A stretch of 64,000 nucleotides of DNA from Bacteroidota bacterium. GTDB taxonomy: Bacteria > Bacteroidota > Ignavibacteria > Ignavibacteriales > Ignavibacteriaceae. Every line of letters begins with the position of its first letter. The first letter of the stretch is position 1. The position numbers and the translations under genes are program-made. The notes beneath the pieces were generated by a model. That model made no database searches, had not been told where the DNA came from, and was given only the letters and a program-made list of their open reading frames with translations. The stretch is from positions 496,001 through 560,000 of the forward strand of contig JAIUOE010000001.1 of assembly GCA_020161395.1 (NCBI GenBank). Reading direction: 5' to 3'. Below, piece by piece: positions 5,384 to 9,791 of this stretch.

Positions 5384-6739
5384 ATGAATTTCAAAGAAGA
5401 TACAATCACGGCAATTGTCACTCCTCTTGGAGTCGGCGCCATTTCTGTCATCAGGATCAGCGGTGAAAATGCCATTTCCGCCGCTGACCGGATATTCCAG
5501 GGTAACCAGTCACTCATTAGCGCAGCTTCCCACTCCCTTAAATACGGGAAAATTATCTCTCCCGACGGCGAAATTGTCGATGATGTGGTCGTGTCAATAT
5601 TTAAAGCACCCAATTCCTACACAGGCGAAAACTCAATAGAAATCTCCTGCCACGGGAATCCAACAATTACCAGACGGATAACGGAACTGCTGTACGATCT
5701 TGGAATCAGAAATGCTGAACCGGGCGAATTCACCAAAAGAGCTTTTCTGAACGGAAGAATCGACCTCTCACAAGCGGAAGCAGTGATGGAACTCATTTCA
5801 GCCCGTTCCGAAGCTTCACTTCGCGGAGCAAGAAATCAACTGGATGGACTCCTCTCTTCCAAAGTAAATGAACTTCGCTCCATGCTTGTTAACACCTCAT
5901 CACTGGTTGAACTGGAACTCGATTTTGCCGAGGAGGATATCGAATTTGTTGACCGGCATGAACTCATAAAAAGAATCTCGAACATCATCTCCGAGATCGA
6001 CCTGCTTCTCTCGTCTTATGCTTTTGGAAGGGTTATTAGAGATGGTGTGAATGTCGCCCTTGTCGGACAACCCAATGTGGGAAAATCCTCACTTTTAAAC
6101 TACCTGCTCAAAGAGTACAGAGCTATCGTAAGCTCCATCCCTGGTACCACCAGAGATATCATTAGAGAGGAAGTGGTGATTGACGGAGTGCTGTATCGCC
6201 TCTTCGACACCGCCGGTATTCGACAGACGGATGATGAAATTGAAATTGAAGGAGTAAAGCGAAGCAGAGAGGCAGTAAAGAATGCAGACCTGGTACTCTT
6301 TATAAACGATGTTGTGCAAAACATCTCAGTTGATCTTTATGATGAAATTAAAGAATTAATAAGCGAAAACAAAATCATCGTAGTACTCAACAAAGTGGAT
6401 ATAAAGCATACCTCTCTCCTGAAAGCCGACATTTCGATATCAGCAAAAACGGGTGAAGGTATTTATGAACTTTTTGATCTCCTGAAAGAGAAAGCTCTCG
6501 GTTCCGAGTCATACAGCGAGAAAGGTGCGGTTGTGTCAAATATGCGACACTACAACTGCCTGAAGCAGGCAAAGCAAAATCTCGAAAATGCCCGGGAATC
6601 GTGTAACCTGAATCTAAGTGGAGAGTTCATATCGGTCGATCTGAGGAATGCCGAAAACTCACTCGCTGAAATTACCGGAGAGATTACAACCGATGATATC
6701 CTGAACAATATTTTTATGCACTTCTGCATCGGAAAATGA
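5384..6739 (+). CDS. mnmE: tRNA uridine-5-carboxymethylaminomethyl(34) synthesis GTPase MnmE
   Basis: MnmE works with MnmG to install the (carboxymethyl)aminomethyl group on U34 of certain tRNAs. The 451-aa product has the N-terminal tetrahydrofolate-binding domain (TAIVTPLGVGAISVIRISG), a central helical domain, and an inserted G domain with the P-loop GQPNVGKS at 228-235, followed by GTTRD and DTAG. The C-terminal tail CIGK contains the conserved Cys. It overlaps the following DUF559 gene by 4 nt (ATGA). mnmG lies about 1.2 kb downstream, beyond the repeat array. No Shine-Dalgarno sequence is visible, consistent with a very short leader. Confidence 0.97.
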   Translation: MNFKEDTITAIVTPLGVGAISVIRISGENAISAADRIFQGNQSLISAASHSLKYGKIISPDGEIVDDVVVSIFKAPNSYTGENSIEISCHGNPTITRRITELLYDLGIRNAEPGEFTKRAFLNGRIDLSQAEAVMELISARSEASLRGARNQLDGLLSSKVNELRSMLVNTSSLVELELDFAEEDIEFVDRHELIKRISNIISEIDLLLSSYAFGRVIRDGVNVALVGQPNVGKSSLLNYLLKEYRAIVSSIPGTTRDIIREEVVIDGVLYRLFDTAGIRQTDDEIEIEGVKRSREAVKNADLVLFINDVVQNISVDLYDEIKELISENKIIVVLNKVDIKHTSLLKADISISAKTGEGIYELFDLLKEKALGSESYSEKGAVVSNMRHYNCLKQAKQNLENARESCNLNLSGEFISVDLRNAENSLAEITGEITTDDILNNIFMHFCIGK

Positions 6740-7095
6740 CAAATCTTTATAACAGAAATTATCTTAAAGACAGAAGAAAAAACCTCCGGAACAACGCAAC
6801 TTCCGCTGAACAAAAGTTGTGGGACGAACTAAAACACAAAAAGACCGGTTACAAATTCCGAAGACAATACAGCGTCAGCAACTACATTCTTGATTTTTAT
6901 TGTGTTGAACTAAAACTCTGCATTGAACTTGACGGTGATTCCCACAACGGCGTAGACGCTGTTGACCACGACCTAGCCCGTGATAAATATCTAGAAAGTG
7001 TCGGAATTGAAACTTTAAGATTCTTTAACGAAGAAGTCTTTAATGATATTAACAAAGTTTTGGAGAGAGTAAGGATTTATTTTCCTCCTGGTTAG
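6736..7095 (+). CDS. DUF559 endonuclease-like protein
   Basis: This is a 119-aa protein of the DUF559 family, which has the fold of very-short-patch-repair (Vsr-like, PD-(D/E)XK) endonucleases. Visible family features are NNATSAEQKLWDELKHK near residues 19-34, GYKFRRQYSVSNYILDFYC with the catalytic-type Asp, and LCIELDGDSH, followed by the terminal GIETLRFFNEEVFND. Its ATG overlaps the mnmE stop (ATGA), so the two are translationally coupled, but the functions are unrelated. This looks like a mobile or accessory gene inserted behind mnmE. A cluster of GC-rich palindromes begins 30 nt after its stop. DUF559 genes are, from general recollection, often found next to such repeats. The biochemical role of the family is not established. 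Confidence 0.88.
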   Translation: MTNLYNRNYLKDRRKNLRNNATSAEQKLWDELKHKKTGYKFRRQYSVSNYILDFYCVELKLCIELDGDSHNGVDAVDHDLARDKYLESVGIETLRFFNEEVFNDINKVLERVRIYFPPG

Positions 7096-7124
7096 TTTCT
7101 GATATTGTGATTTTAGAAGGTTCC

Positions 7125-7465
7125 GACCGCCCCCCTGCCCCCCCTCCTTGTAAAGGTGGGGGGGAGCGTAGATTTTATTTTGGGGTGGTGGTCTGGGTTT
7201 TTCGGGCGATTTAGCTTTCTTTGATCGAAGTTTTAGGGGCCGAAACTTCACTTTTCCATCGACAAGTTTTGTGCACCTCTCCCCCCACCTTTATAAGGAG
7301 GGGGGAGCGTAGATTTTATTTGTCGATGGGGGTTTGGGTTTTTCGGTTGATTTAGGTTTTTGTTTTGATATTTATATCAGTCGAAACCTTACTTCTCCAC
7401 CTACAAGTTTTATAGATCCCTCCCCCCACCTTTCTAAGGAGGGGGGTTGGGGGGGGCGGTACAGA
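7125..7465. repeat. GC-rich palindromic mosaic element 1 (copies R1, R2, R3)
   Basis: The core is a palindrome of the form CCCCCC-TCCTTGTAAAGGTG-GGGGG. R1 (7125-7164) is in forward orientation, R2 (about 7278-7305) is reversed, and R3 (about 7420-7463) is reversed with a long GC tail ending GGCGGTAC. R1 and R3 therefore act as long terminal inverted repeats, beginning (G)ACCGCC and ending GGCGGTA. Two 141-bp spacers follow each other between them. The layout resembles the paired REP sequences (BIMEs) of other bacteria. No protein-coding signal is seen inside. Confidence 0.8.
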
Positions 7466-7560
7466 GGGGTAATTTCCCTAAAGTTCTGTCGATTTTAATG
7501 ATCTTTTTTCGAGCTTTTTTGGTTCTTTTTGGATTTGTTTTTTCGGTGGTGGTGAATGAC

Positions 7561-7765
7561 TACCGCCCCCCCCTGCCCCCCTCCTTGTAAAGGTGGGGGG
7601 AGTGTTGCTTGAGGTTTGGTGACGGGGTGTTTAATTGTCGATTCGCCTTGGGTTTTGGAATTTTTGTTTTAGAAGTTTTTAGCTCCCGAAAGTCCAATTT
7701 TCCATCGACAAGTTCTAGCTACCTCTCCCCCCACCTTTATAAGGAGGGGGGTTGGGGGGCGGTAC
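7561..7765. repeat. GC-rich palindromic mosaic element 2 (copies R4, R5)
   Basis: This is a second pair of inverted palindromes. R4 (7561-7600) starts TACCGCC and reads like R1. R5 (about 7725-7765) is the reverse form ending GGCGGTAC. A 151-bp spacer between them shares CCATCGACAAGTT with the spacers of element 1. Decayed GGCGGTAC ends also occur alone at 7795-7802 and 7806-7813. The remaining sequence between elements 1 and 2 (7466-7560) shows no feature I recognise. Confidence 0.75.
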
Positions 7766-7816
7766 TGGAGCATTTAACTTGTTTTTTTGGGTTAGGCGGT
7801 ACGGGGGCGGTACAAA

Positions 7817-7832
7817 TGTTTCACATGAAACA
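7817..7832. promoter_or_regulatory. parS-like ParB-binding site 1
   Basis: TGTTTCACATGAAACA differs from the classical parS palindrome TGTTTCACGTGAAACA at one central base. It lies upstream of mnmG-rsmG, which is where parS sites and parAB commonly sit near oriC. parA and parB themselves are not in the window. Confidence 0.65.
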
Positions 7833-7883
7833 AATTACACTTTTCATTTTTTAACATAATTGACAACAACACAACTATTAAAA

Positions 7884-7899
7884 TGTTTCACATGAAACA
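7884..7899. promoter_or_regulatory. parS-like ParB-binding site 2
   Basis: This is an exact second copy of the 16-mer TGTTTCACATGAAACA, 67 bp after the first and 15 bp before the mnmG ATG. Two identical near-parS sequences so close together make chance unlikely. A role in mnmG expression is also possible. Confidence 0.65.
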
Positions 7900-7913
7900 A
7901 AACAAAAGATTAA

Positions 7914-9791
7914 ATGCGTAAATATGATGTAATAGTAATTGGTGGCGGACATGCCGGAATAGAGGCATCTGTCGCTGCTGCAAGAATGGGATGTAAAACA
8001 GCCCTCGTTTCGATGGATAAGTATGCAACTGGAAGATTATCATGTAACCCCGCAGTAGGCGGAACGGCAAAGGGTCATCTGGTGCGTGAAATTGATGCTC
8101 TGGGTGGTGTTATGGGTGAGATTGCAGATCGTTCCGGGATACAGTTTAGAATGCTGAACAGAAGCAAAGGTCCCGCTGTCTGGTCACCAAGAAGCCAGAA
8201 TGACAGAGATATTTATTCCCAAATTGCCCTTGAAGTTGTGGAACGGACACCGAACCTTGAAATAATCTCTGAATCCATTGTTGAGATTCTTATTGAAGGT
8301 GGTAAGGTTACGGGTGTGAAAACAGCTCATGGTGAGGAAATAGATGCCAGGGCAGTTGTTCTTTCCTCCGGTACCTTCCTGAATGGATTAATGCACACGG
8401 GATTACAGGCAACCCCTGGTGGAAGATTTGGAGAAAAACCTGCAACAGGAATCACCGAATCTTTGATAAAAGCAGGATTTGAAACAGGAAGACTAAAAAC
8501 CGGAACTCCTCCAAGACTTCATAAAGATTCGATCGACTGGAGTGTTCTTGAGGAACAACCGGGCGATGAGTCTCCCCAGCCATTTTCTCACAGAACTGAC
8601 AAATCGCTGTTCCCGTTTTTACCTCAGGTTTCTTGTCACCTCACTTATACCGATGACAGAGTGCATAAAATACTCGAGAAGGGGTTTTCCAGTTCACCAA
8701 TGTTTACGGGAATCATACAGGGGACAGGTCCACGGTACTGCCCTTCGATTGAAGATAAAATCGTAAGGTTTTCTGATAAACCACGCCATCAGTTGTTTCT
8801 CGAGCCGGAAGGATTGAACTCTGAACTAATCTATGTGAATGGGTTTTCCACTTCGCTTCCTGCAGAGATTCAGCTTGAGGCTTTGAAACTGATAAAGGGA
8901 CTCGAGAATATTGTCATGGTTCGTCCCGGCTACGCGGTTGAATACGATTTCTTCCCTCCCCATCAAATAGACCTGACAATGGAAACCAAACTGGTTAAGG
9001 GATTGTATTTTGCCGGTCAGATAAACGGTACTTCAGGATATGAGGAAGCTGCAGCACAGGGTCTTATGGCGGGTATCAATGCTGCGCTTAAGCTCAGGAA
9101 TGAAAAGGAACTGGTTCTGAAAAGAAGTGAAGCTTACATTGGGGTTTTGGTTGATGATCTTGTAGGGAAATCAACCACAGAACCATACAGAATGTTTACT
9201 TCAAGAGCTGAACATCGGCTCCTTCTAAGACAGGATAATGCCGATACAAGGCTTTCTCATTACGGACACAGAATTGGAATGATCGATGATAATGAATTAA
9301 ACAGCGTTCGCGAAAAGGAAAACAATATCTTCCGCGGCATTGAGCTTTCAAAATCTGTTAAAATCACCCCCGATATTCTGAATCCTTTCCTTCAGGAATT
9401 CTCCTCCTCGGAGGTACAATTCTCCGAAACGGTCGAGAAAATTATCAAGCGACCTGAGATTGACGCATATAAGCTGGGAAGCCTGCTTAATGGAACTGAT
9501 TCATCTGAACTCAAGACAATCTTAAGCGACAAAGAGACTGCATTTCAGATAGAACTGACCCTGAAATATGAAGGCTACATAACCAGACAGCAGGACACTA
9601 TCAACAAACTCGAAAAATATGAAGACCGCTCAATTCCCATAGACCTTGATTATAAACAGGTTCAATCGCTTTCCGCTGAAGGAAGAGAGAAACTTTCAAG
9701 AGTAAAACCACGAAATATCGGACAGGCTTCCCGCATTTCAGGTGTTACTCCTTCAGATATTTCTATCTTAATGGTATATTTGAATAAGTGA
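7914..9791 (+). CDS. mnmG: tRNA uridine-5-carboxymethylaminomethyl(34) synthesis enzyme MnmG
   Basis: MnmG is the FAD-dependent partner of MnmE in U34 tRNA modification. The 625-aa product has the N-terminal dinucleotide-binding motif GGGHAG (residues 10-15), the [13 protein letters not shown] signature and [11 protein letters not shown], followed by [10 protein letters not shown] and the C-terminal helical domain ending [18 protein letters not shown]. The length is normal. It is the first gene of a compact plus-strand run with rsmG 23 nt downstream, and follows the repeat array and the two parS-like sites. No strong ribosome-binding site is visible before the ATG. Confidence 0.98.

Follow-up and report, generated by a model that had tools for sequence, protein, structure and literature searches.

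Small DUF559 nuclease genes bordered by GC-rich palindromes: a candidate mobile element with hairpin ends

The stretch of DNA analyzed here, called the window throughout, comprises 64,000 nucleotides from a Bacteroidota bacterium of the family Ignavibacteriaceae (assembly GCA_020161395.1, contig JAIUOE010000001.1, positions 496,001 to 560,000). Between the genes mnmE and mnmG it contains a small gene of the DUF559 family and, directly downstream, a block of GC-rich palindromes. In Pfam, DUF559 is listed as a protein of unknown function. Comparison of this locus with other DUF559 loci suggests, with a probability that we put at about 0.7, that the DUF559 protein serves as mobility nuclease for a minimal mobile element ending in hairpins, whose DNA it would cleave.

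The DUF559 gene of the window matches Pfam family PF04480 with an E-value of 2.1e-31. The palindromes behind it, here termed type A, read CCCCCC(T)CCTTNNNAAGG(T)GGGGGG or the complement. A first-pass annotation of the window had noticed five of them beside the gene; all are real, the first one starting 30 nt past the stop codon, and a second scan for inverted pairs recovers four of the five with slightly shifted ends (Table 1). Their orientations had been called mixed, and both strands are indeed used, but four copies are ordered as two inverted pairs with outward-facing ends (A1 with A3, A4 with A5). The outer ends ACCGCC and GGCGGT, also described at first pass, are present in four of the five copies and missing from A2. 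With up to two mismatches, the type-A pattern is found at 11 sites in the 4.07-Mb genome, five of them in this block, and the pattern written backwards is found at none, so the cluster is not a product of chance.

Table 1. Genes and repeat features between mnmE and mnmG (positions in the window)
Feature	Position	Strand	Remark
mnmE, upstream host gene	5384..6739	+	TGA stop overlaps DUF559 start (ATGA)
DUF559 nuclease gene, 119 aa	6736..7095	+	motif D53...E64-x-D66-G-x-x-H70 intact
Palindrome A1, left end of pair 1	7126..7166	+	outer end ACCGCC
141-nt unit in tandem	7140..7421	.	units 7140-7280 and 7281-7421, 72% alike
Palindrome A2, internal	7281..7305	-	without outer GGCGGT end; part of 141-nt tandem unit
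Palindrome A3, right end of pair 1	7420..7461	-	outer end GGCGGT
Palindrome A4, left end of pair 2	7561..7602	+	
Palindrome A5, right end of pair 2	7723..7763	-	
Decayed outer ends, GGCGGTAC + GGCGGTAC (family D5)	7795..7813	.	
mnmG, downstream host gene	7914..9791	+	

The same block is found in a sister species (G184, MnmE 97% identical), there with four palindromes and with the 141-nt unit only once; between the two DUF559 genes the ratio of nonsynonymous to synonymous divergence (dN/dS) is 0.096. In G320, another species of the genus, the gap between mnmE and mnmG measures about 1 kb and contains neither a palindrome nor the DUF559 motif. This motif is also missing behind mnmE in all 28 other loci (last 1,500 nt, forward frames; where the contig ends early, as in L094, the stretch read is not the mnmE flank), 13 of which have an mnmG motif within about 140 nt of mnmE. 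Since the block is present here and in G184, while G320 has neither of its parts and the 28 other loci lack the DUF559 motif, the common ancestor of the two species probably acquired it, as one would expect from the insertion after mnmE that the first-pass annotation had proposed. Ahead of mnmG the window carries two identical AAATGTTTCACATGAAACAAA boxes (7814-7834 and 7881-7901), and many relatives have similar GTTTCACGTGAAAC boxes at the matching place; in appearance, these boxes resemble parS sites.

Among the other six type-A sites of the genome, one lies within and one just past a glycosyltransferase gene, whose frame stays open through its palindromes (394 codons). In this gene (L011, about 1450-1525) and in its counterpart in G184 (L175), a truncated palindrome is joined to a full one, the second beginning near the loop of the first, and G184 has one extra partial unit. 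At two further loci (L009, L013) lone type-A palindromes are situated within clusters of repeats that resemble repetitive extragenic palindromes (REP) and contain CTACGAACAT.

A second DUF559 gene of the same genome (C6:95598) is enclosed by inverted copies of another palindrome, type B, with the sequence GACCTCACCCC...CCCCTCTCC-loop-GGAGAGGGG. The 19-kb stretch around this gene harbors eight type-B palindromes, six perfect and two imperfect, which form four inverted pairs: one encloses the DUF559 gene and three are gene-less, with spacers of 31, 127 and 141 nt. All six perfect type-B hairpins of the whole genome are located within 4 kb of the second DUF559 gene, and all four of G184 within the matching 17-kb stretch; an imperfect copy also occurs on contig C10 (among the candidates listed). 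The chance of such clustering amounts to 1.6e-11 if the four pairs are treated as independent placements and to 8e-9 for three founding events, and both figures would be weakened by local duplication. Two of the gene-less pairs lie within open frames that further on show matches to Wzi and an S9 peptidase; these are weak in-frame cases, because the true starts may follow the palindromes. Within this genome, the type of palindrome follows the gene, with type A at the first DUF559 gene and type B at the second.

Flanking palindromes are also frequent at DUF559 loci elsewhere. DUF559 was detected in 170 of the 296 genomes of a phylum sample (E-value up to 1e-3). For each locus, the best inverted repeat between the two 400-nt flanks was scored, scores of at least 30 were counted, and random intervals of the same loci served as controls. 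In a sample of 40 DUF559 loci from the matches listed, 20 in frames of more than 1,000 residues and 20 others, this score was reached by 26 (9/20 and 17/20, respectively) as compared to 15 of 800 control intervals, and a score of at least 40 by 15 loci as compared to one control interval of 800. A preliminary look at 32 loci, which in part represent the same genes and four of which were too short to score, pointed the same way. A scan of named genomes with a profile built from six closer-related DUF559 sequences gave 577 loci, the best 80 of which were scored; five had too little usable flank, and among the remaining 75 the score of 30 was reached by 46, against 5 of 750 controls. With phyla judged from the record names, many of which denote metagenome-assembled genomes, these loci are distributed over Bacteroidota (28/50), Cyanobacteria (4/4), Pseudomonadota (4/5), Chloroflexota (4/6), Kiritimatiellota, Planctomycetota, Patescibacteria and a Methanophagales archaeon (1/1 each) as well as unplaced records (2/2); the single loci scored from Nitrospirota, Desulfuromonadales, Kryptoniota and Victivallaceae did not reach it.

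The arms share a plan rather than a sequence: an outer pyrimidine block (TCACCCC or similar) is followed after 2-4 nt by a hairpin of the form CCCTCTCC-loop-GGAGAGGG or of a variant form like CCCCCTAAAGGGGG. Among the 59 elements with a score of at least 34, the left arm finds its best partner in the right arm of the same element in 51, a figure to be read with the arms having been chosen by their match. The similarity of the palindromes tracks that of the DUF559 sequences (Mantel r 0.23 for the 59 elements, none of 2000 permutations as high, taxonomy uncorrected).

DUF559 also occurs within host genes. Twenty DUF559 domains are embedded in frames of about 1,120-1,470 residues, mostly bordered by residues that the palindromes encode (SPSPSGRG..., ...LPLGEDLGEG), and the insert keeps the host reading frame open. 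By profile or similarity, the hosts are HsdR (five), MetH (four), LeuS, IcmF and UvrD/RecB-like proteins (two each) and, in the remaining five, modification methylases or type IIG/ISP-like enzymes. Alignments to solved homologues cover the host parts before and after the insert and leave the insert itself out: MetH residues 738-900 stand against 18 residues of 9ssp, and the LeuS insert (298-457) falls between residues 236 and 240 of 1h3n. The interrupted LeuS presumably works, since only one full-length LeuS was found in that genome (G053). With borders placed by protein motifs, comparison of the DNA sites showed that 15 of 15 uninterrupted leuS genes read have 24 nt where G053 and G329 carry the element, and G337 has one bare palindrome (30 nt) at this place. 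In IleS, four of four uninterrupted genes have 36 nt where G334, G335, G337 and G343 carry the element; the first codon of this stretch is retained in three of the four, and 30-36 nt of the host loop are replaced. At these LeuS and IleS elements no target duplication was seen; instead, a short host loop is replaced. Of the 38 genomes of the family searched for MetH, some with a partial gene, two carry the element; its site is empty in a genome of the same genus that is 90% identical over the N-terminal part, and G082 has a palindrome scar there. In a further case (L071), DUF559 lies between two identical 42-nt palindromes and is read through at the C terminus of a GATase_5-domain protein. Another region of LeuS, near residue 813 (L114-L131), is hypervariable, with unrelated stretches of very different lengths among species of one genus; as these are mostly not palindromic, this region was rejected as another such insertion.

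Judged by synonymous divergence, the insert is far younger than the host gene in two species pairs. Between the leuS genes of G053 and G329, 186 of 414 synonymous sites differ in the host codons compared and 9 of 63 in the nuclease (p 1.8e-6). Between the ileS genes of G334 and G337, synonymous divergence (dS) is 1.27 outside the insert and 0.07 inside; it drops at the insert and, mildly, in the preceding 20-40 codons. In HsdR of G013 and G132, hosts 52% identical carry DUF559 domains that are 77% identical and are inserted at different sites.

The nuclease motif D-x(8-11)-E-x-D/E-G-x-x-H is retained in 113 of 115 DUF559 domains, including 20 of 20 in-frame ones. An AlphaFold2 model of the window protein (pLDDT 89.6) was matched by Foldseek to 3hrl (5.1e-8), to 3r3p, the catalytic domain of I-Bth0305I (5.9e-5), and weakly to the Vsr nuclease 1vsr (0.043), and a profile search agrees for 3hrl and I-Bth0305I. 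In terms of the predicted structure, the nearest studied fold is that of the homing endonuclease I-Bth0305I. The arms leave no room for a transposase gene between them. A role in defence was considered and rejected: the only PADLOC match of the window protein is a weak one to DpdF (E-value 1.5e-4 over 54 residues), and the C6 protein has none. One experimental study attributes to a DUF559 protein of Caulobacter the DNA damage that arises in the absence of a solitary methylase (PMC12907096). Among the titles and opening abstract lines of DUF559 literature outside subscription journals, none dealt with palindromes or mobile elements.

Nuclease and palindrome are also associated at the level of genomes. 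The generic hairpin CCCTCTCCN2-6GGAGAGGG occurs in 552 copies in 61 of the 296 genomes (control 0). Strong DUF559 matches (E-value up to 1e-15) are found in 48 of these 61 and in 78 of the 235 others, an odds ratio of 7.4 with a p-value of 2e-10 that is too good, since the genomes are related; within genomes bearing the Y1_Tnp family, which includes the REP-associated tyrosine transposases (RAYT) and also IS200-type transposases, the ratio is 6.9. One genome of the same class as ours (G275) has 149 palindrome copies and one DUF559 match. The first-pass annotation had linked palindromes to DUF559 and had suggested for the protein a role like that of RAYT; this reading is supported by adjacency, co-occurrence and the empty-site comparison, all of them drawn from sequence.

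Several observations weigh against a mobility role of DUF559. Flank scores stay below 30 in 14 of the 40 and 29 of the 75 loci, and no more than 9 of 20 in-frame domains reach this value. The proposal that gene and palindromes form a mobile unit is supported by the wider set of loci and only partly by the very locus that gave rise to it: the DUF559 gene of the window lies outside its palindrome pairs and, unlike in full elements, has no palindrome upstream, and the six type-A sites outside the block are remote from either DUF559 gene. Palindromes in genomes lacking DUF559, which the first-pass annotation had itself named as telling against the link, do exist to some extent, namely 79 of the 552 copies, which belong to those 13 of the 61 palindrome-bearing genomes that lack a strong DUF559; in one genome of the same class as ours (G086), 32 copies occur and neither DUF559 nor MTES_1575 is matched. 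MTES_1575 was rejected as a substitute nuclease; it exceeds the cut-off in 2 of the 13, so most of these genomes stay unexplained. Y1_Tnp is associated with the palindrome as well (odds ratio 4.7), and in the 86 genomes without Y1_Tnp the odds ratio for DUF559 is 3.7 and not significant (p 0.14). Signs of recent transfer are missing from the MetH pairs (host 70-73%, DUF559 64-70% identical), the IcmF pair (87% and 75%), one HsdR pair (87% and 79%) and the IleS pairs with G343. Judging from these slow cases, DUF559 seems to evolve faster than the host gene when both are inherited together, and the low-divergence inserts gain weight for that reason. For stand-alone elements, no close-relative pair with a clean empty DNA site was found; two places in G184 (the glycosyltransferase gene and C6) were likewise inspected for clean empty sites of palindromes from our genome, and both are occupied.

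Of the other explanations, movement of the palindromes in trans by RAYT-type (Y1_Tnp) enzymes, as for REPs, appears quite improbable. Such enzymes are common (210 of 296 genomes), and their association with the palindrome has been given above. The first-pass annotation had seen no RAYT, which is true of the window, but the genome contains three Y1_Tnp genes; the two that were read (L280 on C10, L281 on C13) are flanked by GTAG palindromes of their own. Judged from these flanks, the genome houses a REP/RAYT-like system side by side with that of DUF559. Among 22 Y1_Tnp loci, hand-picked and mostly from palindrome-bearing genomes, 12 reach a flank score of 30, again with other palindromes, several having GTAG; DUF559 and Y1_Tnp thus show a similar rate in the flank test, each with its own palindromes. 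A CCC-rich block occurs in both arms at 2 of 11 Y1_Tnp loci as compared to 51 of 59 DUF559 elements, a generic DUF559-type palindrome at 1 of the 22 loci, and three DUF559-positive palindrome genomes have no Y1_Tnp match. Across the 296 genomes and 22 loci, RAYT was rejected as the mover, since Y1_Tnp genes with flanking palindromes have other ones.

An unlikely, if less far-fetched, possibility is that DUF559 is a homing endonuclease gene colonizing pre-existing palindromes, which would spread by other means and serve as safe landing sites. The fold nearest to I-Bth0305I, the same-site transfer in IleS and LeuS, the solo palindrome at the LeuS site of G337 and the palindromes in genomes without strong DUF559 would all fit; that palindrome sequence follows DUF559 sequence, that copies of one type cluster round their gene (A at gene 1, B at gene 2) and that related DUF559 domains occupy different HsdR sites would not. 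It is about as improbable as the RAYT explanation that the in-frame domain represents a useful host domain, for example for restriction or repair, gained by fusion: half of the long frames (10/20, by profile or similarity) are restriction-modification genes, yet the domain also occurs in LeuS, IleS, MetH and IcmF, is as sparsely distributed in MetH as described, is bordered by palindrome-coded residues and is younger than the host in two cases. Hardly credible, finally, is a reading of the palindromes as structural or regulatory DNA such as terminators or supercoiling sites, with DUF559 nearby through expression control or chance. Hairpin shape and intergenic copies agree with it, and it has to face in-frame copies within genes, inverted pairs bearing terminal repeats, two-sided flanking far above controls and replaced host loops.

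If DUF559 is the mobility nuclease, a full element of about 0.5-0.6 kb would consist of an outer terminal inverted repeat (such as ACCTCACCCC), a hairpin, the DUF559 gene, the inverted hairpin and the second outer repeat, and gene-less pairs and single palindromes would be non-autonomous forms mobilized in trans. The nuclease may cut or nick the palindromic ends, the vacant target or both, and repair might then copy the element in, much as in homing; the moving intermediate and the requirement for the nuclease are postulated in this scheme. Dispersal would resemble that of REP/RAYT, and same-site transfer that of homing endonucleases. Break and repair fits better than cut and paste, because a short host loop is replaced and no target duplication was seen. 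With two gene-less pairs downstream of it, the window gene would either work in trans or represent a rearranged copy. A mobility role, if true, would account for the patchy spread of the DUF559 family, identify the enzyme that gave rise to many GC-rich palindromes so far unexplained and offer a case, open to testing, of selfish DNA persisting within essential genes through translation. More tentatively, and with odds that we rate as somewhat short of even, DUF559 elements may form a distinct and very widespread class of mobile DNA in prokaryotes, in which a lone PD-(D/E)XK/EDxHD nuclease acts on hairpin ends, moves gene-bearing as well as gene-less palindromes and is translated without splicing as a tolerated loop in essential genes; this class may also be the source of "protein-coding palindromes" such as the Rickettsia palindromic elements (RPE).

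Among known systems, REP/REPIN-RAYT (TnpA-REP, "REPtron") likewise combines short, paired and inverted hairpins on the flanks of one small nuclease gene with many gene-less copies, and inverted pairs clustered round a nuclease gene are found here as well. An association of RAYT with REPs is usually read as evidence of mobilization. Here, the enzyme is a PD-(D/E)XK-type DUF559 protein and not a Y1 enzyme of the HUH type; at both such loci of this genome the gene is DUF559, and Y1_Tnp loci have other palindromes. In outline, the REP signature is a GTAG-tagged palindrome beside a Y1 enzyme (PMC8266576, PMC3733652). At the hairpin foot, GTAG occurs in both arms of 5 of 59 DUF559 elements and CGTC in 3 of 59, with the Y1_Tnp loci as a yardstick showing just 4 and 2 of 11. 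Given the different enzyme and the scarcity of tags, DUF559 elements are not members of REP/RAYT, from which they also differ in inserting in frame with the gene inside. Gene-less units with terminal inverted repeats recall miniature inverted-repeat transposable elements; target duplication was not seen at the LeuS and IleS elements, and no parent with a DDE transposase was identified, although no search aimed at one was made. The EDxHD/Vsr-like homing endonucleases (I-Bth0305I; such enzymes are treated in PMC3943268) share fold and catalytic core, as far as predicted structure and motif tell, and the insert is younger than the host at one site; DUF559 elements differ by their hairpin ends and the many dispersed copies of these ends. 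Nothing points to self-splicing introns or inteins either: no Rfam intron family was found in 11 loci, and Pfam assigned the insert to DUF559 and MTES_1575 only (8 proteins; no other intein search was made). In "ShiLan", an out-of-frame HNH insertion in a phage methylase (PMC11855218), a homing nuclease gene likewise lies in a host gene without a known splicing element and is read through in the host frame; there, the nuclease is hidden in another frame, and the abstract mentions no palindromes. Nearest in behavior, by description, are the RPEs, palindromic elements of about 150 bp that lie in frame within unrelated protein genes (PMC10969869). In-frame insertion into unrelated genes is common to both; at the length described, an RPE is too short for a DUF559 gene, whereas here the nuclease gene can lie between the palindromes.

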